Virus record (IMG/VR): IMGVR_UViG_3300025141_012285
Location: 1-64,000 of that record
Length of the DNA: 64,000 nt
Direction: 5' to 3' (one strand)
DNA from: a virus
Shown here: piece after piece, positions 8,852-40,425 of the stretch
Numbering within the stretch: position 1 is the stretch's first letter
Layout: each line of letters starts with the position of its first letter
The notes under the pieces: model-generated
What the model saw: only the letters and a program-made list of their open reading frames with translations
Databases searched by the model: none
Told to the model about the DNA's origin: nothing
Program-made: the position numbers and the translations under genes

Positions 8852-9304
8852 ATGAATCCCCTTTGGGAGAAATATGTTAGTGATGGTAAGGATAACGATG
8901 CCGCAATTGCGGTCTGTATTAATGATACAGACCGTTTTTTAATCGTCCGGCGCTCTGATATTGACGAGCGAAGGGGCCAGTGGACTATTCCGGGGGGACA
9001 TGTGGATGCCGATGATAAATCCTTGGAGGCTGCAGCTAGCCGTGAGCTACGAGAAGAGGCCGGCCTAGTGGTATTATTAGGAGATTTACAGTATGTGGGG
9101 GAATCCAGGCCCGGTAAACACTACTTTTTAGCCAAAAATTGGTCTGGAGATGTCAATGTGTCGATTCCTAATCCTGTTACCGGTCAGATCGAGCATGATG
9201 ATTTTAAATGGGCAACGATTAAAGAGATAAAAGACATAGACAATAGTGAAATTCCGATCTATTTATTAGAGAAAGCTTTGGACATGTCTAAAAATGCTAA
9301 ATGA
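8852..9304 (+). CDS. Nudix hydrolase
   Basis: A 150-residue protein of typical single-domain Nudix length. The Nudix box runs from GGHVDAD through SRELREEAGL at about residues 48-72. The RELREEAGL half matches the consensus closely, while the first half carries one extra residue (DDK) before SLEAA. Nudix enzymes hydrolyse nucleoside diphosphates linked to another moiety. Substrates in phages range from nucleotides to ADP-ribose or NAD. The substrate cannot be read here. The fusion enzyme at 19446 with an NMNAT-like domain makes a NAD-related role worth testing. Confidence 0.85.
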   Translation: MNPLWEKYVSDGKDNDAAIAVCINDTDRFLIVRRSDIDERRGQWTIPGGHVDADDKSLEAAASRELREEAGLVVLLGDLQYVGESRPGKHYFLAKNWSGDVNVSIPNPVTGQIEHDDFKWATIKEIKDIDNSEIPIYLLEKALDMSKNAK

Positions 9305-11699
9305 TGAAGAAATTCTGTTAAAAACAGCACAATTATTGGAAAATTTCGATATTTCCGAACAAAAACCCGATAAATTGCTTCGGGAACTCGATGATATTGA
9401 GTTAGAAGCTTTAGATGGCATATTAGATGACATGAAAGGCGAAGATCTCGCGTTTAATGGGCTATTTAACGGCGAAATGCGCAAAGTTATCGACTTTCCG
9501 ACGATGGATAACTCTACGGAGCTTGGAAAGTTCGGAGAATTCTTCAAAAAGCAAGATCTTGAAGTAGATTGGGAAAAAGGATTGGTTTCGGCCGAACGGG
9601 AGGTTAATACTGGTAGTACTGAGGATCTGGTGAACCAGCTGATGGGTGGTCCCCCTGCCCGGTCGAAAAAGAAGAAAATTCAGATGAAAATCGGTAAATT
9701 CTTCGCAAAAGTGGCAGACCTGAGTTCAAAAAGGGATAATTTGTATCAAAAAGCATATGATCACGCAGAAAAGATAAATTATACCGGTGCACACGGCAAA
9801 ATAGATGCTCCATGGAAAGTAAGCGGGAAAATGATCAAAGCGGCGCTTGATGAAAAAGAACAAGAAGAGTATAACCGAATAAATACTCAAATCGGCTTAT
9901 ATATCCCAAATCCGGGCGTTGCCGGCCCTGCTGGCTACGCTCTGACCAATTTAGCGACTAAAATGGCGAAATATTGGCAAACAAACGCCGGATACATCAA
10001 AAAAGAGATAAATAAGCTCGATAATGACAAATATTCCATTATTATCACTCGACATCCCATAGATGTGTTAAGAATGAGTGATTTTGAGAAGATTACCTCT
10101 TGTCACTCTCCGCCAAGCCGATCTGGAGGCACAAATGAGTATTATAAGTGTGCTGTCGCCGAAGCAATGGGTCATGGTGCGCTAGCGTACGTCGTAGAGA
10201 CAGAAGATCTGCTCCATCAGACGAATACGAGCAATATTGAGAGTGCAGAACAAGAAATTCAAGAAGGTGAGATATTTGACGACGATAATAGGTATGAACT
10301 TCCTTCCGCGCACTTTGATATACAGCCCGTAAGTCGCGTCAGGCTGCGGCAAATGCGATACTACGATACTGACAAGCCTAAGCGCTGGGACGACGGCACA
10401 GAGCTAGCAGTACCCGAAGAACGCATATATGGCGCAGGTATCCCCGGAATAGCTGATAGAGTTAGAGTTTGGGCGAAGAAAAATCAAGAAAATGTACTAT
10501 CCAAGATGCCCCAAGACGACGATATGATTGATTTAAATCGATTTTGGATATTTGGCGGCTCATATGAAGATACATCCGGTACCTCGGGAAGAAAATCACT
10601 TCTTTCGGCTCTAACCGGCATTCCAGAGCTTGACTTTACTGGAGAAGTGAATCAAAACAAAGAAACCGAAAATGCTTTAGACGCAAATGCCATATCTGGA
10701 CTTCTTGGAAGATATACCGCCGAAGTAGAACGAATTGAAGACGAGTGGAATCGGCATTATGCCGTTGTAGGTGTAAACGCTAGTGTAGAAGACGACGGAG
10801 ATGGCGGTGTTTATATTGAAGCAGAGGCTCGGATTACCTTCAAATACGATATTGATGAGTTTTCAGGTTTGCCGAATTCTTATCCAACGGGAATGCATGC
10901 TTTTGATAACATAAATGACATATGGGGCGACATCTTTGATAGCAGTTCTGGGTTCGTTAATAAATTCTCGAACACAACGGTTCATATTGGCTGTAGGTTT
11001 AACTTAGAACACCCTGATATTGGAGAATCTGCGCTGATGTATAGTCCTGATGGATTTAATGAGTTTTGTGAAGCACTTGATAAACTCGATGACAGACGCG
11101 ATGGATTCAAAGCAACTATTGATGAGTTTTTGAAGCGCGAAGGTTATCTGGAAGGCGGAGAATACATCAAATTAGCATATGAGATAGAAGACAGCCCATT
11201 CGAATCCTATGAGTGGGATGTGCGATATGATGGAGAACACCCTCCGGAGTCATATGAGGCGACGGCTGCGATATCACACGACTTTGATCACGAAGAACTC
11301 GGAGTAAGCACCGAAGTTTTGGTTGATATCTTGAATTCTACTGGTTGGAGGATGATGATTCGAAGTGCATTGCTGGCGTCCGCACAGGAGGCGCTGGGAA
11401 CCGAATATCATCTTGATGTTGAGAAGAGCGAGGCTAGTGTATCTGGTAGCGAGCATGTTGGATATCTTGTCGATTATGAAATTACCTTCAGAATCACTTC
11501 AGACGACCCTGACGAGCGTGTAAAACTATTCCGTGAGCTTACGACTGGCGAGGATAGTGATATGGACGATGCTGATAACATAAAAGCAGTCTTTAACAAT
11601 GTTATGGCTCAGGTTTTGAACTCTCGGCAGCCATCACATACACAACAGAATTTGGATGAGCGTTTAGTCCGGACATGGAAGGGGTTTTTAGGAGCATGA
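9294..11699 (+). CDS. Large hypothetical protein, probably virion-associated
   Basis: An 801-residue acidic protein. The N-terminal 60 residues are helical (LLKTAQLLENFD, LLRELDDIELEAL) and hold several L-x-E triplets. A central part (about 255-300) has a pattern I associate with uncharacterised marine phage proteins: ITRHPIDVLRMSD, then SCHSPPSRSGG, YKCAVAEAMGHGALAYVVE. The C-terminal 300 residues are rich in strands and acidic. No catalytic motif is certain. The position just before genes with capsid-targeting-like starts suggests a virion protein or one injected with DNA. Confidence 0.6.
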   Translation: MLNDEEILLKTAQLLENFDISEQKPDKLLRELDDIELEALDGILDDMKGEDLAFNGLFNGEMRKVIDFPTMDNSTELGKFGEFFKKQDLEVDWEKGLVSAEREVNTGSTEDLVNQLMGGPPARSKKKKIQMKIGKFFAKVADLSSKRDNLYQKAYDHAEKINYTGAHGKIDAPWKVSGKMIKAALDEKEQEEYNRINTQIGLYIPNPGVAGPAGYALTNLATKMAKYWQTNAGYIKKEINKLDNDKYSIIITRHPIDVLRMSDFEKITSCHSPPSRSGGTNEYYKCAVAEAMGHGALAYVVETEDLLHQTNTSNIESAEQEIQEGEIFDDDNRYELPSAHFDIQPVSRVRLRQMRYYDTDKPKRWDDGTELAVPEERIYGAGIPGIADRVRVWAKKNQENVLSKMPQDDDMIDLNRFWIFGGSYEDTSGTSGRKSLLSALTGIPELDFTGEVNQNKETENALDANAISGLLGRYTAEVERIEDEWNRHYAVVGVNASVEDDGDGGVYIEAEARITFKYDIDEFSGLPNSYPTGMHAFDNINDIWGDIFDSSSGFVNKFSNTTVHIGCRFNLEHPDIGESALMYSPDGFNEFCEALDKLDDRRDGFKATIDEFLKREGYLEGGEYIKLAYEIEDSPFESYEWDVRYDGEHPPESYEATAAISHDFDHEELGVSTEVLVDILNSTGWRMMIRSALLASAQEALGTEYHLDVEKSEASVSGSEHVGYLVDYEITFRITSDDPDERVKLFRELTTGEDSDMDDADNIKAVFNNVMAQVLNSRQPSHTQQNLDERLVRTWKGFLGA

Positions 11700-12284: not shown

Positions 12285-12530
12285 ATGAAATATTTAATAC
12301 TATTGATGTTCTCCGGCGTTGCATATGCCGATGATAAAAAAGAAGAGCCAAAAGTAGTTTATAAACAAAAGACCGAGATTGACTTTGAAAGTGTAGATGT
12401 GGTTGGAGAGTTGCTGAAGCCGCAAGGCTCTTTGGTTCTTGATAGAAAGAGAGCAAAGTTTAATTCAATGGTTTGGATCAGATCTGACTTTGACGATGAA
12501 ATGGACAAATCAATACAGGAGATAAAATGA
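12285..12530 (+). CDS. Small periplasmic protein
   Basis: An 81-residue protein with a signal peptide (MKYLILLMFSGVAYA, cleavage near residue 15). The mature part is charged and contains EIDFESVDVVGELLKPQG and FNSMVWIRSDFDDEM. This recalls small periplasmic proteins encoded next to TolR/ExbD-type genes in gliding deltaproteobacteria, an impression I cannot confirm. If right, it was captured from such a host. Confidence 0.55.
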   Translation: MKYLILLMFSGVAYADDKKEEPKVVYKQKTEIDFESVDVVGELLKPQGSLVLDRKRAKFNSMVWIRSDFDDEMDKSIQEIK

Positions 12531-12703
12531 AACCTCTCCGATATGAGTTTAGTATTGTCGTGGAAGGATATGGCGAATCGGTAGATGAGGCCTTTAGTCG
12601 CGTATTGGATTCTCTGAAAGAAGATCCGGAAGCTGCAATACTAAATGAAGTTGTATATGCTGTTGTAACCGAGGAGGAACTACGAGATGAAACTCCTTCT
12701 TGA
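12527..12703 (+). CDS. Small hypothetical protein
   Basis: A 58-residue protein starting at ATG 12527 (ATGA overlap with the previous stop, AGGAG upstream). It reads as a strand (PLRYEFSIVVEGYGES), a helix (VDEAFSRVLDSLKEDPEAAI) and a strand (NEVVYAVVTE), a ferredoxin-like half or small beta-alpha-beta unit. The V-x-V-x-G-x(4)-EAF-x-R-V-L pattern is common in small phage proteins of unknown role. It overlaps the next gene by 17 bases, which hold that gene's GGAGG site. Confidence 0.55.
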   Translation: MKPLRYEFSIVVEGYGESVDEAFSRVLDSLKEDPEAAILNEVVYAVVTEEELRDETPS

Positions 12704-13334
12704 AAATTGGCGAGAGTATTTGAATGAAGACGAATCTTCTGTGCCTATCATTCATATACCAGACGTGTTTCATACTGGGGAGATGGATATATCGAAAAAG
12801 TCCCAACATAGCCATGAGGCTACGGCACTCTCAGTTACCACAGAAGAGTATATTGAAGATTGGCAGAAGATTGCACGGATTGCCGGCAAGGTTCAGCATT
12901 TGCACAAAGACGATGGCAAGTTTATTGATTTCCATAAAATCTCTGACATGTCTCAAATATACAACTGGGGCATAGAGGAAGGATATTTAGAGCCATCGGA
13001 TATTTATGAAGTATCGTATTATGATGACGAAATGGAAGATGAGATGACAATGAGTTTCCGCTCGCGCGAGGAAGCCGAACTGGAGGCTCACGACTATGGC
13101 GAGGAAATTAAAGTAAAAAAATCATTTGTGCCAACGGAAAAGATGCAATCTGCAATTGGAACCAAAATTAATCAGGTGATGGTAGATGATTATATTACTT
13201 TATTGTATAGCGAGAACATTTCCGTTGATGGTGTGTGGTGGGAGGATATACTAGATGCAAGAAAGTTCTCAGCGCCTCGCGGTGGCATAACCCCTTCCAA
13301 AATATCAAGTTGGGATGCGAAGATAATAAGATGA
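12687..13334 (+). CDS. Protein with a capsid-targeting-like N-terminus (copy 1)
   Basis: A 215-residue protein beginning MKLLLENWREYLNE. The first 27 bases are nearly identical to those at 13331 and 14194. The L-N-E triplet (residues 12-14) fits the (L/I)xE cleavage site of T4-type prohead proteases, and the module resembles the leader of T4 internal proteins (FIAE type). The body is acidic and mixed alpha-beta, ending with SVDGVWWEDILDARKFSAPR, a segment I recall from marine phage proteins. No enzyme motif is seen. I infer packaging in the head and possible injection. Confidence 0.6.
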   Translation: MKLLLENWREYLNEDESSVPIIHIPDVFHTGEMDISKKSQHSHEATALSVTTEEYIEDWQKIARIAGKVQHLHKDDGKFIDFHKISDMSQIYNWGIEEGYLEPSDIYEVSYYDDEMEDEMTMSFRSREEAELEAHDYGEEIKVKKSFVPTEKMQSAIGTKINQVMVDDYITLLYSENISVDGVWWEDILDARKFSAPRGGITPSKISSWDAKIIR

Positions 13335-14197
13335 AACTCCTACTTGAAAATTGGCGAAGATATCAAGGAGAACATGATTTTAATGTTCTCTGCGAGAATC
13401 ATACACGCGGACTAATAACGGACACAGAATTAGTAATGCTTTGGGAAAATCAGGTTAATAATGAACTTGACTTGTTGCTCTCCGAGGGCGAAATTCTGGA
13501 TGCTATTTCAATAGGTTATGAAAAAGGCAAACAATTAGTCGGCAAAGCAGCGGATAAATGGAACGCTGGAATTGAAGCTTGGGCGACATGGGAAGCAAAT
13601 CTATTAAACCAAGCATTTGAGCTTGCAATAAGAATAAGCGAAACTTCTGCGTTAGAAAAGGCTTCTGCTGTGTTGAAGAAAGTATTATCTACTATAAATA
13701 AATATTGTGAGTTGCATCCTACAATATGTAAGGTTGTAAAATTTGTATTAATGATGATGATCATTTCGGCTGTTATATCTTATTTTAGTTCTGAGGCTCA
13801 GGCAGCAGTGGAAGTTACTAAGTTTGATGGTTCTCCACTGATACTAGATGACCGCGGCCTGACGGCAATGAAAGGTATAATGAAGCTTCTGAGCGATGGC
13901 GCGTCACCTGAACAACAACAAGCAACTGTAGAGGCTATGCAATGGTTAGACGTTGCTCATAGCGCTGAAACTACAGTTGAGTTAGCTAAGGCTTCTGGCG
14001 ATGGTGCCCAGATCGCTCAAAGCGTATTCAAACATATGCTGGAGATGTTAAAGACAAGTGAAATACGAAACCTCGACGGTTTTGTTAGTATAGGTGAAAA
14101 AGTGATGATAAAGACGAATACCGTAACCCGAGAAGTTATGACGGCGAAGGGTACACAAGTTACAAATATTGAATGGCAGAGTTTGGTAACCAAATGA
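13331..14197 (+). CDS. Membrane-segment protein with a capsid-targeting-like N-terminus (copy 2)
   Basis: A 288-residue protein beginning MKLLLENWRRYQGE. The leader keeps the shared first nine residues but has Q-G-E rather than L-N-E, so the proposed cleavage site is weakened. The middle is helical. A strong hydrophobic segment lies near residues 133-155 (KFVLMMMIISAVISYFSS), followed by AQAAVEV. The C-terminal part is helical and then strand-rich. A virion protein that inserts into the host membrane during DNA entry would fit, but this is inferred. ATG 13331 is chosen over longer starts because of the shared leader. Confidence 0.55.
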   Translation: MKLLLENWRRYQGEHDFNVLCENHTRGLITDTELVMLWENQVNNELDLLLSEGEILDAISIGYEKGKQLVGKAADKWNAGIEAWATWEANLLNQAFELAIRISETSALEKASAVLKKVLSTINKYCELHPTICKVVKFVLMMMIISAVISYFSSEAQAAVEVTKFDGSPLILDDRGLTAMKGIMKLLSDGASPEQQQATVEAMQWLDVAHSAETTVELAKASGDGAQIAQSVFKHMLEMLKTSEIRNLDGFVSIGEKVMIKTNTVTREVMTAKGTQVTNIEWQSLVTK

Positions 14198-14880
14198 AAC
14201 TCCTACTTGAAAATTGGCGAAAGTATTTGAATGAGATGGAAGAACCCATCACAACCCTTCGCATCTTCGACTTCGATGAGACAATAGCCCATACGAGGTC
14301 AGAAACACGGGTTGTAGCCCCCGACGGCACAGAGGCGACCCTACGTGACCAGCAGGAGTTCGAAGAGTATATGAACGCAGCTGCGGCCCGGGAAGGAATA
14401 GAGGCTTTTGACGCTGTGGATGCTTTGATGGAGTTGGGCTATGAAATTGATTTGAGTGATTTCTCAATTGTTAAAGATCCGGAAGAGATTACGATCGTCA
14501 CCGATATTATGCGTGAGTTTCCTCCGGATTCTAAAACCTATATTATGACTGCTCGACGAGGAAAGTCGCTTGGGCCCATTTTAGATTATCTGGAGGAAGT
14601 GGGGGTTGACTCCACTCAAGTTCGACCTATTGCCACCCAAGGAGAGTCCAAAGGAGATGTAATAGCCCACATGATCGGACAGAAGATTATGCCCGATGGC
14701 AAATCCAACATTAATCGTGTAGAATATTACGAAGATTCTGAAAAGAACATCAAAGATGTACAGCAAAAGGTGTGTGGGAACCCAAATTTAGACGAAATTA
14801 AACCATTAGATTTTGAACTAATCATAAAACAAGTGATCCGAAAAGGAGATACTTACGTATTTAATGACATTGAGTGTTAA
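14194..14880 (+). CDS. HAD-superfamily phosphatase with a capsid-targeting-like N-terminus (copy 3)
   Basis: A 228-residue protein. It has the leader MKLLLENWRKYLNE, then a HAD fold: motif I FDFDETI with Asp26 and Asp28, motif II TYIMTARRGKS, and motif IV YYEDSEKNI. A cap-like insertion lies between motifs I and II (about residues 35-105). HAD enzymes of this kind remove phosphate from small molecules or polynucleotide 3' ends. The leader suggests that the enzyme is packaged and delivered with the DNA, by analogy with T4 Alt and internal proteins. The substrate is unknown. Confidence 0.75.
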   Translation: MKLLLENWRKYLNEMEEPITTLRIFDFDETIAHTRSETRVVAPDGTEATLRDQQEFEEYMNAAAAREGIEAFDAVDALMELGYEIDLSDFSIVKDPEEITIVTDIMREFPPDSKTYIMTARRGKSLGPILDYLEEVGVDSTQVRPIATQGESKGDVIAHMIGQKIMPDGKSNINRVEYYEDSEKNIKDVQQKVCGNPNLDEIKPLDFELIIKQVIRKGDTYVFNDIEC

Positions 14881-14941: not shown

Positions 14942-16663
14942 ATGAAAGTTTTATTAACATGTACAAGCATTGAAGAGGTTAGTCGGACGGAAGAGTCCGC
15001 GGATAGCCATTACCCACTTGGACTGGCCTATCTGCATTCACATTTAGAAAAGTATTCTGATCACCAAGTAGAAACTCATTTCTTAAACAATGTTGACAGT
15101 GACACGTGTTTCGACAAGATTAAAAAAGAAATTGAGACCTTTCAACCAGATATTGTTGGGATTTCTATTATGACGTTCAGCCGAACTAGTTCCTATAAGA
15201 TGATCGAATATTTAACCGAGAATCACCCCAATATCAAAATTGTGCTAGGGGGGATGCATCCCACTGTTATGTGGAAAAATATGCTCAAGAAATACACTAA
15301 CTGCGTTATCGTTGTTGGTGAGGGAGAGATTACTTTCCACGAACTCTTGGATTGTTATGAAAAAGGAACTGAACTTTCCGAAATAAAGGGCCTCGCTTAT
15401 CATAACGGAGAAGAGATTGTAAAAACAGGAGAGAGAGACCTCATTGACGACCTTAATGTTTTGGAGTTTCCAAAGCACGAAATCTTTTTGTGGAAAGGAA
15501 AGAAGATGGCCAATTTGCTTACAAGTAGAGGGTGCCCTTTTAAATGCAATTTCTGTGTTCTCGACCACATTTCTTTAAGGAAAGTAAGATTCCGAGGCGC
15601 CGAGGATGTATGCGATGAGATTGAAGAAATCTTAAGAATTTGTCCCACCGTAGAAACGATCTGGCTACATGATGATGCATTTATGATTAATAAGAAAAGT
15701 ACGATGGCTTTGTGTAGAGAAATTATACGCCGCGGCATTAAAACCAACTTCACCTGTAGCGCTAGGTTTCGGCCGGTTTCTAGAGAGTTGATTAAACTAA
15801 TGGAAGAGGCTGGTTTTAATCATGTGTTGTATGGTCTTGAGTCAGGCGCCCAAAACATTATGGACGATATGAAGAAAGGTATCAATAAGGATCACATACG
15901 ATATGCAATATCGTTGATGGCTGAAAGTAATATTAAAACAACAGCATTTTTAATTGTTGGATTACCCCGCGAGACTCAAGAAACCATCGACGAGACAATT
16001 AATTTTGTTCAAGAGATGCAATTTAACAACTACCTTTATTATGATGATATTGGTGTTGCTATGATTTACCCCGGGACTGAGATTTATACAATGGCCAAGT
16101 CTAAAAATTTAGAGGTCGAAGGTTACGGAGTATTAGACGACGACTACTGGCTTACAGACTTAGAGGTGCCCTACTATTTATGTGAAAATACTCTTGAACA
16201 GATTTTTGCATGGAAAGAAGAAATCCGGAATGCAATTGCCCTTAGCCGAATTGATAAACCAGAGAACTTCCTTAAGCAAAAGAAGATGTTACCATCTTTG
16301 ATTAAGTATAGCTTTAAGTTTGGTATGCACGGCATTATCAATATGCTTCATCGGTCCCTACAGAAACACCAGCTGCTTCCTGAACTTATTAGAACATTCT
16401 TCGTTGGTAATCCGGAAGATATGTATAATAAGATTGCCAAAAATATGGAGAAGGATATGATTGCTGGATTCATGGAGAAAATGTCATTAGAAGAGAAAAA
16501 GCAGTTTATTGTGGATTACCAAAATCAAACTAAAGAAGATAATAAAATAATAGATAAATGGAAGGTACAACGTCATGAAGCTGCTGACGAATATATACCA
16601 CTTAAAAAACAGCCGGCAGCAGCGCCCGAGATGTCAAATCTATTAAATATTGTTAGTAAATAA
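14942..16663 (+). CDS. B12-binding-type radical SAM enzyme
   Basis: A 573-residue protein. The N-terminal 150 residues have the Rossmann-like cobalamin-binding fold of class B enzymes (PDIVGISIMTFSRTSSY, IKIVLGGMHPTVMW, VVGEGE). The radical SAM core follows, with the cluster motif CxxxCxxC at Cys198, Cys202 and Cys205 (SRGCPFKCNFC). Later TIM-barrel motifs include LYGLESGAQN and LIVGLPRET. Such enzymes methylate, rearrange or modify lipids, sugars, peptides or cofactors. The phage substrate is unknown. It needs a 4Fe-4S cluster, which links it to the Fe-S genes at 29135. Confidence 0.85.
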   Translation: MKVLLTCTSIEEVSRTEESADSHYPLGLAYLHSHLEKYSDHQVETHFLNNVDSDTCFDKIKKEIETFQPDIVGISIMTFSRTSSYKMIEYLTENHPNIKIVLGGMHPTVMWKNMLKKYTNCVIVVGEGEITFHELLDCYEKGTELSEIKGLAYHNGEEIVKTGERDLIDDLNVLEFPKHEIFLWKGKKMANLLTSRGCPFKCNFCVLDHISLRKVRFRGAEDVCDEIEEILRICPTVETIWLHDDAFMINKKSTMALCREIIRRGIKTNFTCSARFRPVSRELIKLMEEAGFNHVLYGLESGAQNIMDDMKKGINKDHIRYAISLMAESNIKTTAFLIVGLPRETQETIDETINFVQEMQFNNYLYYDDIGVAMIYPGTEIYTMAKSKNLEVEGYGVLDDDYWLTDLEVPYYLCENTLEQIFAWKEEIRNAIALSRIDKPENFLKQKKMLPSLIKYSFKFGMHGIINMLHRSLQKHQLLPELIRTFFVGNPEDMYNKIAKNMEKDMIAGFMEKMSLEEKKQFIVDYQNQTKEDNKIIDKWKVQRHEAADEYIPLKKQPAAAPEMSNLLNIVSK

Positions 16664-18003: not shown

Positions 18004-18031
18004 TTTTAACTTTAAAATAACTTAAAACTAT
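18000..18031 (+). other. AT-rich hairpin
   Basis: ATAGTTTTAA (18000-18009) and TTAAAACTAT (18022-18031) form a perfect 10-pair stem with a 12-base loop. No G-C richness and no clean U-run follow, so it is a poor terminator. The right arm runs into AACTATTTATA, a motif that also precedes genes at 24282 and 26634. Confidence 0.5.
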
Positions 18032-18058
18032 TTATAATGATTCGTCTGAGTATTAAAA

Positions 18059-19194: not shown

Positions 19195-19446
19195 ATGTCA
19201 TTAGATTCGCAATGGCGAGATTTTCTTAACGAGAGTCTTGATGAAAAGAACATCTTTACCTATATTCAAGGTCTCCAAGAGATAATTTCCAATCTAAAAC
19301 CAAAGACGATGACTGAAAAACGAAGACTACAACTTGCAAAAAATCATTTGCGAGAAGTTAAGAGATTCGCTCGCCGGATGGACAATGATATTGGAGTACT
19401 TGAGGAAAGGCTTAATATACTAGAAGAATCTCAAGGAGATAAGTAA
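19195..19446 (+). CDS. Helical protein with a capsid-targeting-like N-terminus
   Basis: An 83-residue protein beginning MSLDSQWRDFLNESL. The W-R-D-F-L-N-E block aligns with NWREYLNE of the genes at 12687 and 14194, with the L-N-E at residues 11-13. The rest is a basic helical hairpin (KTMTEKRRLQLAKNHLREVK, RRMDNDIGVLEERLNILEES). Internal head proteins are often small, basic and helical, which fits. It has a good AGAGGA ribosome site. Confidence 0.6.
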   Translation: MSLDSQWRDFLNESLDEKNIFTYIQGLQEIISNLKPKTMTEKRRLQLAKNHLREVKRFARRMDNDIGVLEERLNILEESQGDK

Positions 19447-21557
19447 TGGGCGGTGTTGCCGGGCATATGGCGCACTTGTCAGAGGATTTAAGTCTGACTT
19501 TCAATGAGATAGTCAGTATCCTTGGCAAGGTAGCGAATGCAGAAATTACGAACGCTACCGAAAAAGTTGATGGTCAAAACTTGTTTTTAACTGTTGACGG
19601 GGACGGTGAAATCAGAACCGCCAGAAACAGCGGAGACGTTAAGAAAGGCGGCATGACTACCGACGAATACATTAGCAAGTGGAGAGGACACCCGGCGGAG
19701 AATGCCTTTACAAACGGTTTCAAGGCTGTTTCAGCAGCGCTGCGCAAGCTTAGCCTAGAAGACCTCGAGGCCATCTTTGCAAACGGACAGAGATACGTTA
19801 ATATGGAAATAATGTATCCGAGCAATCCTAATATTATTTTGTACTCTTCGCCCAATATTGTATTGCATGGCCTTCAATATTTCGGAGAGGAAGAAGAGAC
19901 TCCGGAAATGAGGCAACTTACTAAACAAAAATTTATTAAGTTAGATAACCTTATTGATGGAGCATCCGAAAAAGTCGGAGAAGAAAAGTGGGCTGTAAAT
20001 GGCCCAAAACTCGTTGCTCTCAAAAAGCTAGCAGATGGATCTGCATTAGAAGAAGTAACGGCCAAGATTGAGTCGTTTGCAGCGCCGGTAGGCATGGATG
20101 CCACAGTGGGCGATTATGTCGAACAAGTGGTTAGGGGTTATGCTGAACAAGTTGGACTACCGGATGACGTTACGGAAAAACTTATTCTTTTAATGCTGAA
20201 CCCAGAAGAAGCGAAAGAACAGGGGGTCACTGTTGTTAATCTCAAGAAAGGTCTTCCGAAAGAGCTACAAACTACTGTTTCTAATCTCGGATCTAAAACC
20301 AAATCTAGGAAATATATTGCCAGTGTCTTGAAACCGCTTGAAGTAGCCATTAGTGATTTTGCTATTGAGGTTCTCCGCGGAGTTAAGAGTTATTTTGTCA
20401 GCGATAATGATGAAGAGGTTGCTCGGATGAGAGCAGAACTCGAACAGTCGATTGCTTATCTTAAAAATCTTCAAGCATCTGGCGATGAAAAGATGGGTGA
20501 ACTTATTGATGTTCAATTGGGGAAACTGGGAGACATTGAAAATCTCGCTTCTTCTATGGAAGGGGTTGTGTTCGAATACCCGCCGGGCTCCGATAAAATT
20601 TACAAGCTCACGGGTGCGTTTGCGATGGCCAATCAAATTATTGGTAGAGCAAGGCGCTCAGGAATGACTGAAGAAGAGGAACTCGATATCGATATCCTTG
20701 AAGATAATTACGACGGCGACAGCGACGAATGGTATGAACTAAGACACCAAATGGATCAGGAACTCGGAGAGCCAGAAGAAGATGAATCAGACGATCCAGT
20801 AGTGGATGCCGATTATCCTAAGACTGTTGCTGTTGTTCCAGGGGCATTTAAACCACCTCACAAGGGGCATCTAGATATGGTGCGGAAATATGCCAATATT
20901 GCCGACGAGGTCGTGGTAATTATTTCTAAGCCAACCAAGCAGGGTAGATATCTTCCGGATGGGAGAGAAATCACTTCCGCGGACTCTCTTAAAATATGGA
21001 ATGCACTAACTTCGGACATACCCAATGTTAGAGTCGAGGCGTCCAAAGACCATGCATCTCCGATAACTGCAGCATATGATTTTATTGGTGACAAAGGTTC
21101 CTTAAACGTAGAAGATAAGGTTATTCTAGGGGCTAGCACCAAAGACGATGACTGGAAAAGATGGGTTGGGGCAGAAAAGTATGTCAAGGATGGAATAATA
21201 TTGTTGGATCCTGAGAAGACCGCGGTTGGTCCTACAATGCGTGCTAGCGGCGAACCATATAGCGCCACTGAATTTCGCACCGCACTTGGTAACCCAGAGA
21301 ATCGTGAAGAGATTGCTGACTTTGTTGGTGAAGAAAACGTAGACGCTGTATTAGATATACTTGGTATCGGTGCTGTAGAAGAAACATCCGCTATGGGTGG
21401 TGGTGCCGTGGGAGGATTCTCGGGCCCTTTGGGATCTACGTCGGGTAAAAAGCGCAGAAATGCGCAACAAGACACAATTATCAGACAAGAAAATATCGAT
21501 TTAAGTATCGTTGATGAAGTTATGAAACTAATTACTGGAAGAGGCATTACACAATGA
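19446..21557 (+). CDS. Fusion of ligase-type nucleotidyltransferase and NMNAT-like adenylyltransferase
   Basis: A 703-residue protein. The N-terminal part has the covalent nucleotidyltransferase signatures of DNA/RNA ligases and capping enzymes: KVDG at Lys40 to Gly43 (motif I), EGVVF at 372-376 (motif IV) and KIYKLTG at 384-390 (motif V). After an acidic linker, the C-terminal part has VPGAFKPPHKGHLDM with HxGH at His472 to His475, and YSATEFRTAL in the place of the ISSTxxR motif, as in NMN adenylyltransferases and cytidylyltransferases. Such a fusion could ligate or cap RNA and make a dinucleotide cofactor. Which reaction is used is not shown. Confidence 0.7.
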   Translation: MGGVAGHMAHLSEDLSLTFNEIVSILGKVANAEITNATEKVDGQNLFLTVDGDGEIRTARNSGDVKKGGMTTDEYISKWRGHPAENAFTNGFKAVSAALRKLSLEDLEAIFANGQRYVNMEIMYPSNPNIILYSSPNIVLHGLQYFGEEEETPEMRQLTKQKFIKLDNLIDGASEKVGEEKWAVNGPKLVALKKLADGSALEEVTAKIESFAAPVGMDATVGDYVEQVVRGYAEQVGLPDDVTEKLILLMLNPEEAKEQGVTVVNLKKGLPKELQTTVSNLGSKTKSRKYIASVLKPLEVAISDFAIEVLRGVKSYFVSDNDEEVARMRAELEQSIAYLKNLQASGDEKMGELIDVQLGKLGDIENLASSMEGVVFEYPPGSDKIYKLTGAFAMANQIIGRARRSGMTEEEELDIDILEDNYDGDSDEWYELRHQMDQELGEPEEDESDDPVVDADYPKTVAVVPGAFKPPHKGHLDMVRKYANIADEVVVIISKPTKQGRYLPDGREITSADSLKIWNALTSDIPNVRVEASKDHASPITAAYDFIGDKGSLNVEDKVILGASTKDDDWKRWVGAEKYVKDGIILLDPEKTAVGPTMRASGEPYSATEFRTALGNPENREEIADFVGEENVDAVLDILGIGAVEETSAMGGGAVGGFSGPLGSTSGKKRRNAQQDTIIRQENIDLSIVDEVMKLITGRGITQ

Positions 21558-29134: not shown

Positions 29135-29530
29135 ATGTCATATTCAGAAAAAGTTCTTGATCATATGGAGAATCCTCGCAATGTTGGAAGCATGGATAAA
29201 GAGTCCCCGAACGTTGGAACGGGAATCGTTGGTGCACCCGCATGTGGTGATGTGTTAAAGCTGCAATTGAAAATTAATGATAATGGATTGATCGAGGAAG
29301 CCAAGTTTAAAACTTTTGGGTGTGGTTCTGCTATCGCCTCTAGCTCTTTAATCACCACCATGGTAAAAGGTATACATGTAGACGACGCCATGGAAATTTC
29401 TAACTTCGAAATAGCGAAAGAGCTATCACTCCCCCCAGTTAAAATACATTGTTCAGTATTGGCTGAGGATGCAATCAAAGCCGCTATCCATGACTGGGAA
29501 GCTAAACAGGACGATACAAAAGATGAATAG
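29135..29530 (+). CDS. iscU: IscU-type iron-sulfur cluster scaffold
   Basis: A 131-residue protein, the usual IscU length. All key residues are kept: Cys37 and Asp39 (PACGDVLKL), Cys63 (FGCGSAIASSS) and His105-Cys106. The LPPVK motif at 99-103, which in bacterial IscU is bound by the chaperone HscA, is intact. So the protein should assemble 2Fe-2S clusters with sulfur from a host IscS and use host HscA/HscB for release. No desulfurase gene is in the window. It overlaps the Nfu gene by eight bases. Confidence 0.92.
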   Translation: MSYSEKVLDHMENPRNVGSMDKESPNVGTGIVGAPACGDVLKLQLKINDNGLIEEAKFKTFGCGSAIASSSLITTMVKGIHVDDAMEISNFEIAKELSLPPVKIHCSVLAEDAIKAAIHDWEAKQDDTKDE

Positions 29531-29786
29531 AGAGGCCATACAAGATTTTGTTGATGAAGATATTAACCCAGCACTCTCCATGCATGGTGGCCATTTAAAA
29601 ATTGTGTCGGTAGACGACAAGGGCCTTGTTGAAATTGAGTTAAGCGGTGGCTGTCAAGGATGTGCCTCAGCCAGCGAAACTGTAAAAACTGCAGCTAGCG
29701 AGTTGATGAGGAATAAATTCCCCGGGATAACAGATATTAAAGATATTACTGATCATTCCGCAGGAGAGGATCCATACCACAAATGA
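29523..29786 (+). CDS. nfu: Nfu-type (NifU C-terminal) cluster carrier
   Basis: An 87-residue stand-alone Nfu domain. The CxxC motif is at Cys44 and Cys47 (LSGGCQGCASAS), preceded by PALSMHGGHLKIV, the typical Nfu start. A dimer binds a 4Fe-4S cluster between the two CxxC pairs and hands it to target proteins. The start at ATG 29523 gives the normal length; longer in-frame starts overlap iscU. Four bases of overlap with the IscA gene show translational coupling. Confidence 0.9.
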   Translation: MNREAIQDFVDEDINPALSMHGGHLKIVSVDDKGLVEIELSGGCQGCASASETVKTAASELMRNKFPGITDIKDITDHSAGEDPYHK

Positions 29787-30106
29787 TTACTGTAACTGAA
29801 GCAGCCAAAGATAAGATAAGAACTATAATGGCAAAAAGGCAAACCCCAGGCCAATATTTGAGAATAGCCCTGCAGGGTGGTGGCTGTTCGGGATTTATGT
29901 ATAGCTATGATTTAGTATCAGAACCAGATGAAAAGGATAAGATATTTGAATTTGACGATGTAAAAATTTGCATTGATATAAAGTCGTATTTATTTTTAAG
30001 TGGAATGGAAATAGATTACGAAGAAGATTTATTAAAGTCGGGATTAGTATTCAACGCACCGCAAGCTAAACGCACATGCGGATGCGGAGAATCAATATCA
30101 TTTTAA
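29783..30106 (+). CDS. iscA: A-type (IscA/ErpA-like) cluster carrier
   Basis: A 107-residue protein, the exact length class of IscA. The three conserved cysteines are Cys35 (GGGCSGFMY), Cys99 and Cys101 (RTCGCGESISF). It starts MITVTEAAKDKI as in the HesB/IscA family. It would carry clusters from IscU to apo-targets. With IscU and Nfu it forms a scaffold, carrier and delivery set but lacks IscS, HscA/B and ferredoxin. Confidence 0.92.
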   Translation: MITVTEAAKDKIRTIMAKRQTPGQYLRIALQGGGCSGFMYSYDLVSEPDEKDKIFEFDDVKICIDIKSYLFLSGMEIDYEEDLLKSGLVFNAPQAKRTCGCGESISF

Positions 30107-31869: not shown

Positions 31870-33159
31870 ATGAATAAAAAGAAAATCTTGGTCCTAGCTG
31901 ACCATCCACTTTCACCTTCGGGTGTTGGTACACAAACTAAATATATGATTGAAGCCCTGCTTAAAACCGGCCGCTATAAATTTATTTGTTTAGGGGGCGC
32001 CATGACGCACAATGACTATAATGCGGTCAGAGTAGACCCATATGGCGACGATTGGGTTATCTATCCTGTTGATGGGTACGGAAATCATGAGATTATTAGA
32101 TCGTTGCTAGCAAAAGAGAAACCAGACGTACTTTGGTTTATGACGGATCCCCGATTTTACGAATGGCTATGGGAAATTGAAAACGAAGTCCGCGCGAATA
32201 TTCCAATGGTATATTATCACGTTTGGGATAACTTCCCAGCGCCACACTTCAATGGTAAATGGTACCGATCAAATGATCATATTGCCTGCATCTCTAAAGT
32301 TACGCATGCTATTGTTCAAGAAGTGGCGCCTGCGGTTGATTCAACTTATTTGCCCCACGCGGTACCGGCTACAATTTTTCACCCCGCCTCAACTCCAGAA
32401 GAGAAGGCGGAAGCAGTGAACGTTCGAAATCAAATATTTGAGGCAGACACAGAGCGAAAGTTTGTAAATCCTAAAAAGAAGATCTTCTTCTGGAATAGTC
32501 GAAATGCCCGCCGTAAACAAAGCGGAACATTGATCTGGTGGTTTAAAGAACTGCTTGATGAAATAGGACACGATAAGGCTACGTTGTTGATGCATACCGA
32601 CCCTCGTGATCCACATGGTCAGGATTTACCTCATATTATCGAGCACTTAGGTCTTATCTCTGGCCAAGTTTTACTTTCCTCGGTTAAGATTCCACCCGAG
32701 GCCATGGCCAATATGTATCGCGCCGCGGATTATACGATCGGTATTAGTGACGCAGAAGGCTTCGGCCTATCTACTCTAGAGTCTTTGACTTGCGGCACTC
32801 CGATTATCGTTAATATGACCGGCGGCCTGCAGGAACAGGTTACAAATGGAAAAGAATGGTTTGGGTGGGGGATCCAGCCGAGCAGCAAAGCCGTAATTGG
32901 TTCATTACAAGTCCCCTATATTTACGAGGACCGCATCGGCCAGGAAGACTTTAATCGTGTGATGAAGAAGGCATTAGCCTTAAGTGCACCAAAATACAAA
33001 AAGATGAGCGAAATGGGCTTGCAACATATAAAGAATAACTATAACTTTGAAGACTATGAACAAAATTGGATTAATCTCATGGATAATATTGTTGAGAAAC
33101 ACGGCTCCTGGGAAAATCGCAAAAATCATAGACGATGGCATTTATTGGAGGTGGCATAA
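31870..33159 (+). CDS. Family 4-type glycosyltransferase
   Basis: A 429-residue GT-B enzyme and the first gene of the glycan locus. The N-terminus VLADHPLSPSGVGTQTKY and the C-terminal nucleotide-sugar site EGFGLSTLESLTCGTPII are typical GT4 signatures, with a KKIFFWNSRNARRK segment starting the second Rossmann domain. It transfers a sugar from an activated donor to a glycan or protein; donor and acceptor are unknown. Cytoplasmic, with no membrane helix. It is coupled to the next gene by a TAATG overlap. Confidence 0.85.
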   Translation: MNKKKILVLADHPLSPSGVGTQTKYMIEALLKTGRYKFICLGGAMTHNDYNAVRVDPYGDDWVIYPVDGYGNHEIIRSLLAKEKPDVLWFMTDPRFYEWLWEIENEVRANIPMVYYHVWDNFPAPHFNGKWYRSNDHIACISKVTHAIVQEVAPAVDSTYLPHAVPATIFHPASTPEEKAEAVNVRNQIFEADTERKFVNPKKKIFFWNSRNARRKQSGTLIWWFKELLDEIGHDKATLLMHTDPRDPHGQDLPHIIEHLGLISGQVLLSSVKIPPEAMANMYRAADYTIGISDAEGFGLSTLESLTCGTPIIVNMTGGLQEQVTNGKEWFGWGIQPSSKAVIGSLQVPYIYEDRIGQEDFNRVMKKALALSAPKYKKMSEMGLQHIKNNYNFEDYEQNWINLMDNIVEKHGSWENRKNHRRWHLLEVA

Positions 33160-34409
33160 TGCGTAAAACAGTTGTACTGAGAGGCCCGGTCCTCACTAGA
33201 TCTGGCTATGGCGAACAGGCGCGATTTGCACTGCGCTCGCTCCGCAGTAGAGAGGACATCTTTGATATTTATATTCATCCTCTGCAGTGGGGGCATACCA
33301 GTTGGCTACACGAAGATAATGAAGAGAGAAAATGGATGGACACGAAAATTGAGCAAACAATCAGTCACGTCCAGAATAACGGGACGTTTGATTATTCGGT
33401 TCAGGTAACCATACCCAATGAGTGGGAGAATATTGCAACCAAAAATATAGGTTACACAGCAGGTATTGAAACCACCAAAATCGCACACGAGTGGATTCAA
33501 AAGGGTAACGAGATGGATTCCATTATTGTGGTTTCTAATCATTCTAAAAACGTTTATGAAAGTACTCATTACGAAGCAGTGGTAGAACAAACAGGCGAGC
33601 CCGTGACCCTAAAGAACACAGTCCCCATCACCGCAGTTAACTATCCAGTAAAGACTTATGAAAACTTAGAAGAACCAGAGTTGAATTTGACGACTGATTA
33701 TAACTTCTTGTGTGTGGCCCAATTCGGGCCCCGCAAAAATCTAGAGAACACTATCAAGTGGTTTTTAGAAGAATTTAAGAACGATTCGGATGTTGGTCTT
33801 GTGGTCAAAACTAATATAGCAAAAAACTGTTCCGTCGATCGAGAAGTTTGTTATGCACGCCTTGCTAATACTGCAAAGCAGGTACCTGATCACAAATGTA
33901 AACTATATTTGTTACATGGAGACTTAACAGACGAAGAAATGCATTCAATGTATATCCATCCAAAAATTAAAGCAGCGCTCTCTCTCTCACATGGTGAAGG
34001 GTTTGGGTTACCTTTGTTTGAGGCAGCTTATATGGGCATCCCCGTGGTGGCCACCGGGTGGTCCGGACAGCTAGACTTTCTCTGTGACGAAGAAGGCAAA
34101 AACAATTTCTATAATGTTAGTTTTGATATGGTCCCAATACCCGAAAATGTAGTTTGGGATGGCGTCCTTATTAAAGATTCTATGTGGGCTGTTCCTCGCG
34201 AGCAAGGATCTAAGACTAAAATGAGAGAATGTTACGAAGCAACAAAAGAGGGAGATGTCCAAAAACACAGGGAATATGCAAAAGAACTTGCTACCAGATT
34301 TTCTGAAGAAAAAATGTATAAGGAGTTCATCGATGCGATGGGTATTGATGAAGAAGAGTTCAATGTGGAAAGCTGGCTCGATGGTTTGGATATCGAAGAA
34401 ATAGATTAG
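33159..34409 (+). CDS. Family 4-type glycosyltransferase
   Basis: A 416-residue protein. ATG 33159 overlaps the previous stop and follows TTGGAGG. Near the start RGPVLTRSGYGEQARFALRS is a GT4-like glycine-rich loop, and LSHGEGFGLPLFEAAYMGIP with VVATGWSGQLDF is the donor site. FLCVAQFGPRKNLENTIKWF begins the C-terminal domain. It is a second, divergent GT-B enzyme, so at least two sugars are probably added in sequence. Confidence 0.85.
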   Translation: MRKTVVLRGPVLTRSGYGEQARFALRSLRSREDIFDIYIHPLQWGHTSWLHEDNEERKWMDTKIEQTISHVQNNGTFDYSVQVTIPNEWENIATKNIGYTAGIETTKIAHEWIQKGNEMDSIIVVSNHSKNVYESTHYEAVVEQTGEPVTLKNTVPITAVNYPVKTYENLEEPELNLTTDYNFLCVAQFGPRKNLENTIKWFLEEFKNDSDVGLVVKTNIAKNCSVDREVCYARLANTAKQVPDHKCKLYLLHGDLTDEEMHSMYIHPKIKAALSLSHGEGFGLPLFEAAYMGIPVVATGWSGQLDFLCDEEGKNNFYNVSFDMVPIPENVVWDGVLIKDSMWAVPREQGSKTKMRECYEATKEGDVQKHREYAKELATRFSEEKMYKEFIDAMGIDEEEFNVESWLDGLDIEEID

Positions 34410-35245
34410 TGAAAATAATATTCATCGCAGATTTTTTTGTGGAACAAGTGCTTGGCGGCGGCGAGTTAAATAATGACGAACTTCTGCAAATATTGGTTGC
34501 TAATGGTCATGGTGTCATAAAGATGAATAGTCACAATTTGACTGAATCTTTTATAAAGAATAACAAAGACGCCCATTTTATAATCGCCAACTTTGTCAAT
34601 GTGAAGCCCTACCTACTAGGGCATTTTTATGATAAAAAGTATATTATCTACGAGCATGATCACAAGTATATGCTTTCCCGGAATCCGGGTGCCTATCCCG
34701 ATTTTAAGGCGCCCCCCGAAGCGCTTGTAAACGTTGAGCTTTATAAAAATGCACAAGCAGTGCTCTGTCAATCTCAGTTCCATCTGGAAATAATAAAGAT
34801 GAATCTCCAGTTAGAAAATCTTATTAATTTGAGTGGGAACATTTGGTCTACATCTTCCTTGGATTTGATGTTGAGAATGTCTAAGAAAGAAAAGCAAGAC
34901 ATGTGTTCGATCATGCATTCTCAGATTCCTCACAAGAATACGAGAGAAGCGGTTATGTATTGCGAGCACACAAAAAAGCCATATAAATTGATATCTAGTA
35001 AGAATTACGAGTCATTTTTAGATCAACTAAGTGATAACCAAACGTTCATATTCTTTCCCCAGACTCCTGAAACCCTCTCTAGGGTTGTTGTAGAGGCTCG
35101 CATGATGGGGATGAGTGTTATCGTTAATAAAATGATTGGCGCCACGCGTGAACCATGGTACGAACTGAAAGGCAAAGAGTTGATTGAATATATGCATGCT
35201 AAACGAACTGCAATTGCGGATTTAGTGGCTAAGGCGGTAGCATGA
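34409..35245 (+). CDS. Glycosyltransferase-like protein, GTG start
   Basis: A 278-residue protein; GTG 34409 overlaps the previous stop. The start FIADFFVEQVLGGGELNND shows the GGGE loop of GT4 enzymes. The end FFPQTPETLSRVVVEARMMG and IVNKMIGATRE resembles their E-x7-E donor region with weaker conservation. It is shorter than the two preceding enzymes. It may be a compact GT or a partner subunit. Donor unknown. Confidence 0.65.
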   Translation: MKIIFIADFFVEQVLGGGELNNDELLQILVANGHGVIKMNSHNLTESFIKNNKDAHFIIANFVNVKPYLLGHFYDKKYIIYEHDHKYMLSRNPGAYPDFKAPPEALVNVELYKNAQAVLCQSQFHLEIIKMNLQLENLINLSGNIWSTSSLDLMLRMSKKEKQDMCSIMHSQIPHKNTREAVMYCEHTKKPYKLISSKNYESFLDQLSDNQTFIFFPQTPETLSRVVVEARMMGMSVIVNKMIGATREPWYELKGKELIEYMHAKRTAIADLVAKAVA

Positions 35246-36309
35246 ACTTGATTCTTTCCTATCCGCGGAGCGGAAGCACTTTTGTGCGCTATATTATTGA
35301 ACACTTTACGAAGCGCCCAACGCGGGGCCCACCTACTTCAACAAACCTTGTTGATAGTCCGCGCATTGAGAAATATAAAAATGAAAAACCCGTCGCTTTT
35401 AAGATACATGGAGAAGATGCCCTGCACCAAGAATATATCCATGCCATGCTGAAGCGCAATATACCTTTAATATTTTTGATGCGTAATCCAATGGAGATGT
35501 TTCCTCGCCACACCGGTCAAGAGAGAGCTTACACCATAGCTTCCGAACCTCCCGTCCCTCCTCTTTCTGCGGATATAGCGTATTTTTTTGAAAACATAAA
35601 AACGTATGAATTGTACGAAGGGAAAAAGCAAATCTTTTATTATGAGGACTTGGTAGAAAAACCCGCATATGTCATAAAACAGCTGTGCGAATTTTTGAAC
35701 GTAGATACAAACGGCGCCGAACAGCGCAAGTTCATGGATAATTTTGAGGAACACTTTGAGAACAGCCGCAGCGCCTATAACGCAGACCAATCCGAAGACT
35801 CAGACCTAGTATTTTTCATGACTTTGGAGCCACCTGGTCCAGGTGGCCAAGGTACCTTTGTTCCCTATTCTCGGTTCCTTCAGCGGGGCAAAAATGCATC
35901 TGATAATCAGAAAATGCCCGGATTGGAGTGGAGTCCGGAGACAGATCTCGATGTATTTAAATTTAAACAGATGCGAATATACCAAGGCCACCCGGACGTA
36001 GAGGTGTTCGATGGCATACCTGAGCTTCATTGGCAATTCGCGCTCGCGCACGATCCTGCAAAACGGACTGATCCACAACACAACGGCATCCTCATCACGT
36101 ATGAGATGGCAGAAGCGACCGCGGTCATCCCGACTACCCTTGAGACCAAAGGAACACACAGTGATGGAAAGACCATCGTTAGCTATTCTCTGAGATTAAC
36201 CCCAAGACAACAAGAAAACTTCTGGAGCAACTTTAAAGAGCTTTGTGGTTCCGGAAACTGGGACACATGCGAGAGATATATGGATATCGAGTATGGGGAG
36301 GAGAAATGA
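35242..36309 (+). CDS. Sulfotransferase, first of a tandem pair
   Basis: A 355-residue protein. LSYPRSGSTFVRYIIEH is the 5'-phosphosulfate loop of PAPS-dependent sulfotransferases, and PLIFLMRNPMEMF is the 3'-phosphate binding strand with Arg-Asn-Pro. FYYEDLVEKP is a further family segment. The catalytic domain is about residues 1-190. The C-terminal part (about 190-355) is not part of the usual fold and ends FWSNFKELCGSGNWDTCERY. It would place sulfate on a sugar hydroxyl or on tyrosine. Host PAPS is needed. Confidence 0.85.
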   Translation: MNLILSYPRSGSTFVRYIIEHFTKRPTRGPPTSTNLVDSPRIEKYKNEKPVAFKIHGEDALHQEYIHAMLKRNIPLIFLMRNPMEMFPRHTGQERAYTIASEPPVPPLSADIAYFFENIKTYELYEGKKQIFYYEDLVEKPAYVIKQLCEFLNVDTNGAEQRKFMDNFEEHFENSRSAYNADQSEDSDLVFFMTLEPPGPGGQGTFVPYSRFLQRGKNASDNQKMPGLEWSPETDLDVFKFKQMRIYQGHPDVEVFDGIPELHWQFALAHDPAKRTDPQHNGILITYEMAEATAVIPTTLETKGTHSDGKTIVSYSLRLTPRQQENFWSNFKELCGSGNWDTCERYMDIEYGEEK

Positions 36310-37496
36310 GTATTAATCTTATTCTCTCTTATCCCCGAAGTGGCAGCACTTTTGTGCGCTATATTATTGAACACTTTACGCAGCGCCCCACTCGGGGGCC
36401 CCCCACATCAACCCATCTTATTGATGCGCCTGTTACTTCTATCGACACGAATAAAAAAACAATCGCCGTTAAAATACATGGAGAAGATGCCCGGCACCAA
36501 GAATATATCCATGCCATGCTGAAGCGCAATATACCTTTAATATTTTTGATGCGTAATCCAATGGAGATGTTTACGCGGCATACGGACATCGACCATACGC
36601 GCACAATCGTTCATTATCCGCGAGAAGAAATACCGCAAAATATAGCGTATTTTTTTGAAAACATAAAAACGTATGAATTGTACGAAGGAAAAAAGCAGAT
36701 ATTTTATTATGAAGACTTGGTAGATAATCCAGCCATTGTCATCAAACAGTTGTGCCAGTTTTTGAAAGTAGATCCGAGCGGCAAAGCACAACAAAAATTT
36801 ATGGATAATTTTGATGAGCACTTCAAAAAGAGCCGTCATGTATATAACACGCACCAAGGTAGTCCATCCACGATGCTGTTGTTTCTTGGCATCGACCACT
36901 CTCGCATGCGAGACACCACCTCGATCGAGATGAGTACAATTGCCGAGTGGGCCAACACATTGCCCATCGCAGGCGAGCATCTCGGGATGGACACGGGCCC
37001 AAATAGACCTCCCATAACATTGGTCTTCTTTACTGCGTCCGGAAAACTCAATCCGGGGATAGAAGCGCTCACTCTTCCCCCTCTGGATGACAAAATGCTC
37101 GATTATGTCGCAACCCGACTGATCTCGAAGCGCTACGACACTTTTTGTGGCCCATCCCCATCTGCCCCCGCAGACGCCCTCTCCTGGTACGAGATTGCCA
37201 ATCTTATAAAGAAAGTCGACGTCAGTGCCGGGCCCGGACGTTTCCTAAACCCCTCATTAATTATACACCACGGCAGAGAAGCCATCGAAAAACACGCCAG
37301 CCTTGCAGTTCGAATCCCCACCGATGAAATATATGGTGGAACCCGTAGTGATGGAAAAACCACCACGCGCTATGCTATAGAGTTGACGACCGAGCAACGC
37401 GCAAGATTCTGGAGCAACTTTAAGGAGTTGTGTGGTAAAGACAACTGGCACACATGCGAAAGATATATGAATATTGATTACGGGGCGCCAGCATGA
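36306..37496 (+). CDS. Sulfotransferase, second of a tandem pair
   Basis: A 396-residue protein. ATG 36306 overlaps the stop of the first copy after GAGGAG. The catalytic domain is nearly identical to that of the first copy, including bases: about 100 bases (36471-36572) differ at two positions. The middle (about residues 190-340) is unrelated and longer, rich in serine/threonine and proline. The end (FWSNFKELCGKDNWHTCERY) is again shared. The pattern is conserved head and tail with an exchanged middle, suggesting different acceptors for the same sulfation reaction. Confidence 0.85.
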   Translation: MSINLILSYPRSGSTFVRYIIEHFTQRPTRGPPTSTHLIDAPVTSIDTNKKTIAVKIHGEDARHQEYIHAMLKRNIPLIFLMRNPMEMFTRHTDIDHTRTIVHYPREEIPQNIAYFFENIKTYELYEGKKQIFYYEDLVDNPAIVIKQLCQFLKVDPSGKAQQKFMDNFDEHFKKSRHVYNTHQGSPSTMLLFLGIDHSRMRDTTSIEMSTIAEWANTLPIAGEHLGMDTGPNRPPITLVFFTASGKLNPGIEALTLPPLDDKMLDYVATRLISKRYDTFCGPSPSAPADALSWYEIANLIKKVDVSAGPGRFLNPSLIIHHGREAIEKHASLAVRIPTDEIYGGTRSDGKTTTRYAIELTTEQRARFWSNFKELCGKDNWHTCERYMNIDYGAPA

Positions 37497-39833: not shown

Positions 39834-40425
39834 ATCATGGTTAGCCGATGGTGCCATGGTACAAGAGATCGTTGAACGCCTCAAAGAATGTGAAGGAAAC
39901 TATTTGGAGATTGGTTGCTTTGAGGGGCACACCTTGAAAAGAGTAGCCAAGGCCGTTCCCGAAAGGATATGCTATGGAATAGATCCCTTTTTGGGAGATA
40001 GGTTCGTTGCACCTGCCGAGGTAGAGAAGGAAAATACTCAGTTTATACCGATGCCGGAACAGAAACAGAATCTTTATCAAAATATTAAAGAGCTTAACAA
40101 TATATCTTTTCATGAAACCACAGCAGAGGAATTTTTATCCTCTCACGCTGATGAGGAACTATCTGGCTTAAATATTTCTGTAGTATTCATCGATGGCTCA
40201 CATCACTATGAGTATGTGAGTATAGATTGGAAACTAGCACTTAAGGTTATTGGCCCAAAGAAGGGGTGTGTGTTGTTTGATGACTTTGGGGTTGAAGATG
40301 TACGTACAGCATTTCATGAATGTGCTGCTCATCTCGAAAAAGAAGAATATGGATATGTAGCTAGTGCACCGCCGGCCACTTCTACACGCAGCGAACGCAT
40401 AGCAACTATAAAGGTAAACGTATGA
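39817..40425 (+). CDS. SAM-dependent methyltransferase
   Basis: A 202-residue class I (Methyltransf_24-type) enzyme. GNYLEIGCFEGHTLKRVAK is motif I for SAM binding, ICYGIDPFLGDRF is motif II, and VVFIDGSHHYEYVSIDW then GCVLFDDFGVED are typical of this family, which often methylates sugars. It lies between the two transketolase halves and overlaps both by a few bases, so all three are co-translated. Likely modifies the same sugar or glycan. Confidence 0.8.
   Translation: MFKSPKSWLADGAMVQEIVERLKECEGNYLEIGCFEGHTLKRVAKAVPERICYGIDPFLGDRFVAPAEVEKENTQFIPMPEQKQNLYQNIKELNNISFHETTAEEFLSSHADEELSGLNISVVFIDGSHHYEYVSIDWKLALKVIGPKKGCVLFDDFGVEDVRTAFHECAAHLEKEEYGYVASAPPATSTRSERIATIKVNV

Follow-up and report, generated by a model that had tools for sequence, protein, structure and literature searches.

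A short leader shared by the N-termini of otherwise unrelated proteins in an uncultured marine T4-like phage and its relatives is, with high probability, the capsid-targeting propeptide of a marine T4-like phage clade and would work like the T4 capsid targeting sequence. A first-pass annotation of the DNA had proposed a capsid-targeting leader with a prohead-protease site, and the sequence comparisons support that reading, because conservation stops at the P1 glutamate (E14), displaced (L/I)xE sites compensate for the loss of E14, and relatives carry the protease and gp23 (18/18) as well as leader-like proteins beside the protease. The leader would form a short helix, with the core L-L-x-x-W-(R/K)-x-(F/Y)-L, that binds the scaffold core of the nascent prohead, and the attached body would thereby be incorporated into the head. 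A T4-type prohead protease would cut after (L/I)-x-E, usually L12-N13-E14, and release the body, which would later be injected along with the DNA. The bodies would be modules that can be swapped and would include enzymes or effector-like domains with possible anti-host roles.

Proteins that enter the host together with phage DNA are difficult to identify, and in T-even phages a leader offers a way in. The leader described here would be a sequence handle on the many proteins that these viruses probably deliver into bacteria by injection. Across a widespread, uncultured marine clade, its signature would make hundreds of orphan genes predicted virion-delivered proteins, including those with kinase, Zeta-toxin-like, HNH, GNAT, ParB-like, HAD and ADP-ribosyltransferase-like bodies, and it would permit direct tests of how proteins get chosen for packing.

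Leader genes of the window and their bodies

The window is the whole stretch of DNA that was analysed (64,000 nucleotides) and belongs to a virus fragment of 84,071 bases (84 kb). Its relevant features are the following.

9294..11699, + strand: protein of about 800 aa; the N-terminal leader is absent here and present in some homologues
11661..11696, + strand: RLVRTWKGFLGA, the tag in its C-terminal version; NLDE just before it (E789 at W-6) is a possible body-side cleavage site
12527..13330, + strand: segment comprising the gene at 12527-12703 and leader gene 1, with ATGAAAC start codons at both ends; the syntenic relative L201 lacks it
12687..12728, + strand: leader MKLLLENWREYLNE of gene 1, with cleavage predicted after E14 (codon 12726-12728)
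12729..13334, + strand: body of gene 1, 201 aa, an orphan by Pfam/PHROG, IMG/VR peptide patterns and fold model
13331..13372, + strand: leader MKLLLENWRRYQGE of gene 2, with Q at P3, which makes E14 a poor match to (L/I)xE
13331..14197, + strand: gene 2, 288 aa, hydrophobic segment at about residues 138-150; syntenic relative in L201
13388..13396, + strand: displaced predicted cleavage site of gene 2, L20-C21-E22 before N23
14194..14235, + strand: leader MKLLLENWRKYLNE of gene 3, with cleavage predicted after E14 (14233-14235)
14194..14880, + strand: gene 3, 228 aa, HAD-type phosphatase body by homologue conservation and model
19195..19233, + strand: variant leader MSLDSQWRDFLNE, carried by a conserved 83-aa protein from a cluster of 12 members, with cleavage predicted after E13

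The sequence MKLLLENWRxYLNE begins three adjacent genes with unrelated bodies, at 12687, 13331 (where it ends in YQGE) and 14194, just as the first-pass annotation had reported, and the 84,071-base record contains no exact match to the leader besides these three. The near-identity claimed for the first 27 bases was also confirmed, since the leaders at 13331 and 14194 are identical over 28 bases and that at 12687 has one mismatch in the first 27. The related WRDFLNE start noticed at 19195 was seen as well; this protein starts with MSLDSQWRDFLNES, in which W-R-x-F-L-N-E is present and MKLLLEN is missing. The correct start of gene 3 is 14194, and the mechanical ORF opens earlier, at 14173. Both 13331 and 14194 overlap the stop of the preceding gene as ATGA, suggesting that the three leader genes are probably translationally coupled. 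Immediately 3' of them lies a 573-aa protein (14942-16663) with RGCPFKCNFC, a radical SAM-type cysteine motif.

The body of gene 1 had no Pfam or PHROG match and no relative in IMG/VR by peptide patterns, and its fold model was unusable owing to low confidence (pLDDT 41). Gene 2, earlier described as a membrane-segment protein, has the hydrophobic segment listed above. The description of the 14194 body as a HAD phosphatase stands with respect to its catalytic motif: D26 and D28 of DFDET, T30 and T119-A-R are invariant in 20 leader-bearing homologues, and the DxD(T) motif of the HAD phosphatase superfamily is present. The fold is less clear, as several of the top PDB matches are HAD proteins (E ~3e-3, TM ~0.4) with unrelated folds intermixed; the Pfam match is below the cut-off. 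No substrate was assigned to this body because the fold matches are weak and mixed with unrelated folds. In the model of the 14194 protein, the leader (residues 2-15) is predicted with low confidence to be a separate helix. Bodies elsewhere matched protein kinase, Zeta toxin, guanylate kinase, HNH, GNAT, ParB-like and 5'-3' deoxyribonucleotidase entries in Pfam or PHROG, with weaker matches to ART-PolyVal, Tox-PLDMTX and SseC, and the majority of leader-borne bodies had no match in these databases. An effector role of the bodies is plausible.

Spread of the leader and its predicted cleavage site

A degenerate DNA pattern for the leader matched at least 119 loci in IMG/VR and none in 84,980 bacterial and archaeal genomes (257 Gb of cellular sequence). 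The many unrelated bodies behind it in IMG/VR and its absence from these cellular genomes place the leader far beyond chance. Among the matches listed, 234 distinct bodies with canonical spacing gave an information content of 3.46 bits at residue 14 and 0.44 at residue 15; the search expression for this count had named downstream residues, and the count was repeated using residues 1-8 only. With no constraint past W8, 261 distinct leader starts were obtained among the matches listed, 162 of them outside the scan pattern, and the same drop was seen at residue 15 (2.63 to 0.39 bits). E14 was present in 89% of the 261 leaders and in 82% of the unselected ones, and conservation in this set extends from M1 to E14 and ends at residue 15. 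The bodies among the matches listed fell into about 110 unrelated BLASTP clusters, 51 of which were singletons.

The propeptide typically ends at a gp21-type (L/I)xE site, with L or I at P3 in 210 of the 232 leaders that have E14 (among the matches listed). Twenty-one of the 29 leaders without E14 have (L/I)xE inside residues 11-22 (for example MKLLLENWRGYLLTE, MKLLFENWRKYINLLNE and MKLLFENWRQYSAKIICE, followed by S, E and A, respectively), compared to a mean of 2.8 and a maximum of 9 expected from 2000 samplings of random body windows. The E14 and P3 counts and the displaced sites indicate that the cleavage site is what selection maintains. A protease site at E14, as first proposed, is predicted for the 12687 and 14194 proteins; the proposal is unlikely to hold for the 13331 protein, whose leader is one of four with E14 and no L, I, V or M at P3. 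L20-C21-E22 lies downstream of this atypical leader, and the likely cut of the 13331 protein is between E22 and N23 of VLCE22-N23, not at E14. A related protein in L086 carries LKE14 and VLCE22 together.

Head genes and the C-terminal copy of the tag

A gp21-family (S77) prohead protease (PF03420) and gp23 (PF07068) were detected in 18/18 long leader-bearing contigs (141-204 kb), a result that speaks for compatibility and not specificity, since the contigs were picked by length and the whole clade is T4-like. Neither gene is in the 84-kb record of the window phage, which does not cover the head genes, and its protease is predicted from relatives. In two close relatives, G019 and G022, which share about 78-91% identity with the window in the HAD gene and its neighbours, the protease is located at 97-99 kb on the contigs, which fits head genes past the end of the window record. 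In 5 of 20 genomes, G019 and G022 among the five, proteins with a leader-like N-terminus are encoded near the protease (at most about 1.5 kb away), eight in total, and 0/260 ORFs in head regions away from the protease have such an N-terminus. Examples beside the protease include MKLLLEHWNRYLQE, DAWRKFLTE (followed by A), SWKNYLVE (followed by S) and AWKGFLAE (followed by S). A scaffold-like protein 5' of gp23 (L205-L222) has a conserved C-terminal (R)xxxLAGI(K) motif, and one of the leader-like proteins next to the protease, L206 4981, has a C-terminal RRWHQLAGI.

The leader resembles the N-terminus of gp23 in sequence, a resemblance that is new here. The N-terminal region of gp23 contains LL(R/K)E in 18/18 contigs, a motif that MAFFT places in a different column from T4 E65, so that their equivalence rests on position in the region. 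LL(R/K/Q/T)E occurs at the N-terminus of most of the proteases of the 18 contigs. T4 gp23 carries LLNKWKPLLEGE, and NWRKLLEGE occurs in some leaders. Outside leaders, the relaxed motif L(L/I/V)xxW plus two hydrophobics plus E was found at gp23 N-termini only (17/17), which is supportive of mimicry and no proof of it, as the expression was composed after both the leader and gp23 had been seen.

The 9294-11699 protein and its homologues likewise end in the core W(K/R)x(F/Y)L, a new observation missed in the first-pass annotation. Among 1196 proteins, the core had 244 N-terminal occurrences, 25 at the extreme C-terminus and 20 in other places, and a stricter count revealed that most of the last were leaders whose start had been called too far upstream. 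The C-terminal copies belong mainly to the family of about 800 aa that contains the 9294-11699 protein, for which Pfam and PDB searches gave no function. E is found at W+6 in only 3/25 of these copies, and its near-absence there indicates that the tag core is separable from the cut site. E at W-6 occurs in 18/25, mostly as NE, and a body-side cut next to the C-terminal tag is possible, against which many C-terminal copies have T at P3 where L/I-x-E would require L or I. We tentatively suggest, as a possibility short of an even chance, that W-(K/R)-x-(F/Y)-L acts as a two-ended tag for packing and mimics the scaffold-facing N-terminus of gp23, with the body freed either way, and that it offers a plug-in slot for more than 100 injected families. 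The cut site would follow the N-terminal copy and precede the C-terminal copy of the 800-aa family, and the slot would hold a fast-changing arsenal of marine T4-like phages.

Alternative explanations and known systems

The unit conserved could be DNA or RNA, namely a translation-start element or a recombination cassette (ATGAAACTCCTACTTGAAAATTGGCGA) copied before genes. Leaders have a codon bias that was not seen in bodies (CTC at codon 3 in 115/234, CTA at codon 4 and CGA at codon 9), which suggests the spread of a single DNA cassette, and comparison of the window with L201 shows one leader gene gained or lost exactly at ATGAAAC start codons, which is also new. However, W8 and E14 are kept while adjacent codons vary, variants such as MKNFNNIWRNYLTE retain the peptide pattern alone, (L/I)xE is restored at displaced positions, and in the 800-aa family the core is found again at the C-terminal end, distant from any start. 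A cassette role is compatible with targeting and no substitute for it, and a purely nucleic-acid explanation is quite improbable. Within contigs, residue 5 of the leader showed greater uniformity (57%) than after shuffling (32%). The element ACTATTTA was found on the coding strand in the 80 bases upstream of leader genes (L005-L123) at 34/329 starts, a count that includes redundant copies, where 2.4 were expected; it never occurred on the opposite strand upstream of these 329 starts and was absent before gp23. The window has a copy at 18027-18034. The element is possibly a promoter; as a late promoter it was rejected, being enriched 5' of leader genes but missing before gp23.

It is improbable that the leader targets a structure or partner different from the prohead core (the tail, a chaperone, the inner membrane or a host protein, for example) and ends in LxE incidentally. 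The predicted helix is rich in L, W and F/Y and could bind membranes or many partners, but conservation ends at a protease-type glutamate that is compensated upon loss, leader-like proteins adjoin the prohead protease, and the core is like the gp23 N-terminus. That the shared start is a functionless remnant of recent gene duplication is scarcely credible. The three genes are tandem neighbours with nearly identical first 27 bases, but selection is required to explain about 110 unrelated bodies in many contigs, the invariance of W8 and the abrupt end at E14, and leader conservation and the displaced sites already contradict the duplication hypothesis.

In T4, according to PMC9026906, the motif of the protease is L/I-x-E, internal proteins are directed to the core by propeptides 10-19 residues long, and the residues needed for targeting can be separated from those needed for processing. 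As in T4 IPI-IPIII (MKTYQEFIAE before A), a short N-terminal leader (14 residues here, with about 110 body clusters among the matches listed) is common to unrelated proteins, ends in (L/I)xE and occurs in phages with a T4-type protease (PMC9026906 and PMC12373910). The principle is already known from T4 internal proteins; neither the leader described here nor its scale nor its enzyme bodies were found in the literature searched, whose coverage left out most subscription papers and preprints. Unlike in the T4 internal proteins, the peptide has an invariant W, some bodies are enzymes, a C-terminal version exists, packing is predicted from sequence, and about 110 body clusters occur in one sample, compared to at least 10 internal proteins reported for T4-related phages. 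Counting against capsid targeting are the lack of recognisable homology to MKTYQEFIAE (by inspection only MK, an aromatic and an aliphatic residue and xE are common, with different spacing), the P1' residue (most commonly E, in contrast to A in IPII and IPIII), the 15/20 genomes with no leader-like protein next to the protease and the 8/29 leaders lacking both E14 and a strict (L/I)xE.

T4 Alt is a packed and injected ADP-ribosyltransferase with propeptides cut at both ends (PMC9026906). The bodies here likewise include a weak ART-PolyVal match, but the C-terminal tag is on the 800-aa family and no Alt homologue was shown. Some body domains are of kinds related to those of phage polyvalent proteins (ART, ParB, GNAT; PMC5512222), which are large multidomain proteins, whereas the bodies here are mostly short, leader-borne and linked to a candidate packing signal. 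The inner-body and ejection proteins of phiKZ and SPN3US are similarly head proteins cut after glutamate by a gp21-related protease (PMC9026906); in contrast to the leader, the phiKZ cleavage motif is S/A-x-E, and the accessible text of that source mentions no common 14-residue leader.

No close cultivated relative was identified, as tblastn of three window proteins (60107, a structural-region protein; the HAD protein; and the 83-aa protein) gave nothing in 50,697 phage records. The exact leader was missing from the examined parts of Flavobacterium phage immuto, Microcystis phage Mel-JY01 and Rhodothermus phage RM378. In Methylophilales phage Melnitz, a nucleotidase homologue is surrounded by several proteins whose N-termini are T4-like but different (MQGFKTFLSEA, MKNFKNHIAEE), and the N-terminus of the immuto nucleotidase is MKKVMGNLADLLLEES, suggesting that each clade has its own leader, with putative packing in those phages.

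Other genes of the window were recorded in passing. Adjoining the 19195 leader gene is a 703-aa protein (19446-21557) with a cytidylyltransferase-like domain (PF01467), and a comparable cluster of genes in Melnitz encodes a protein whose start is similar and nucleotidyltransferase-like. By inspection of the sequence, three small consecutive ORFs (29135-30106) resemble iron-sulphur cluster assembly proteins. A long series of apparent glycosyltransferase, epimerase and sulphotransferase-like genes, likewise recognised by inspection, spans 31870-46798 and includes the similar neighbours 35242 and 36306.
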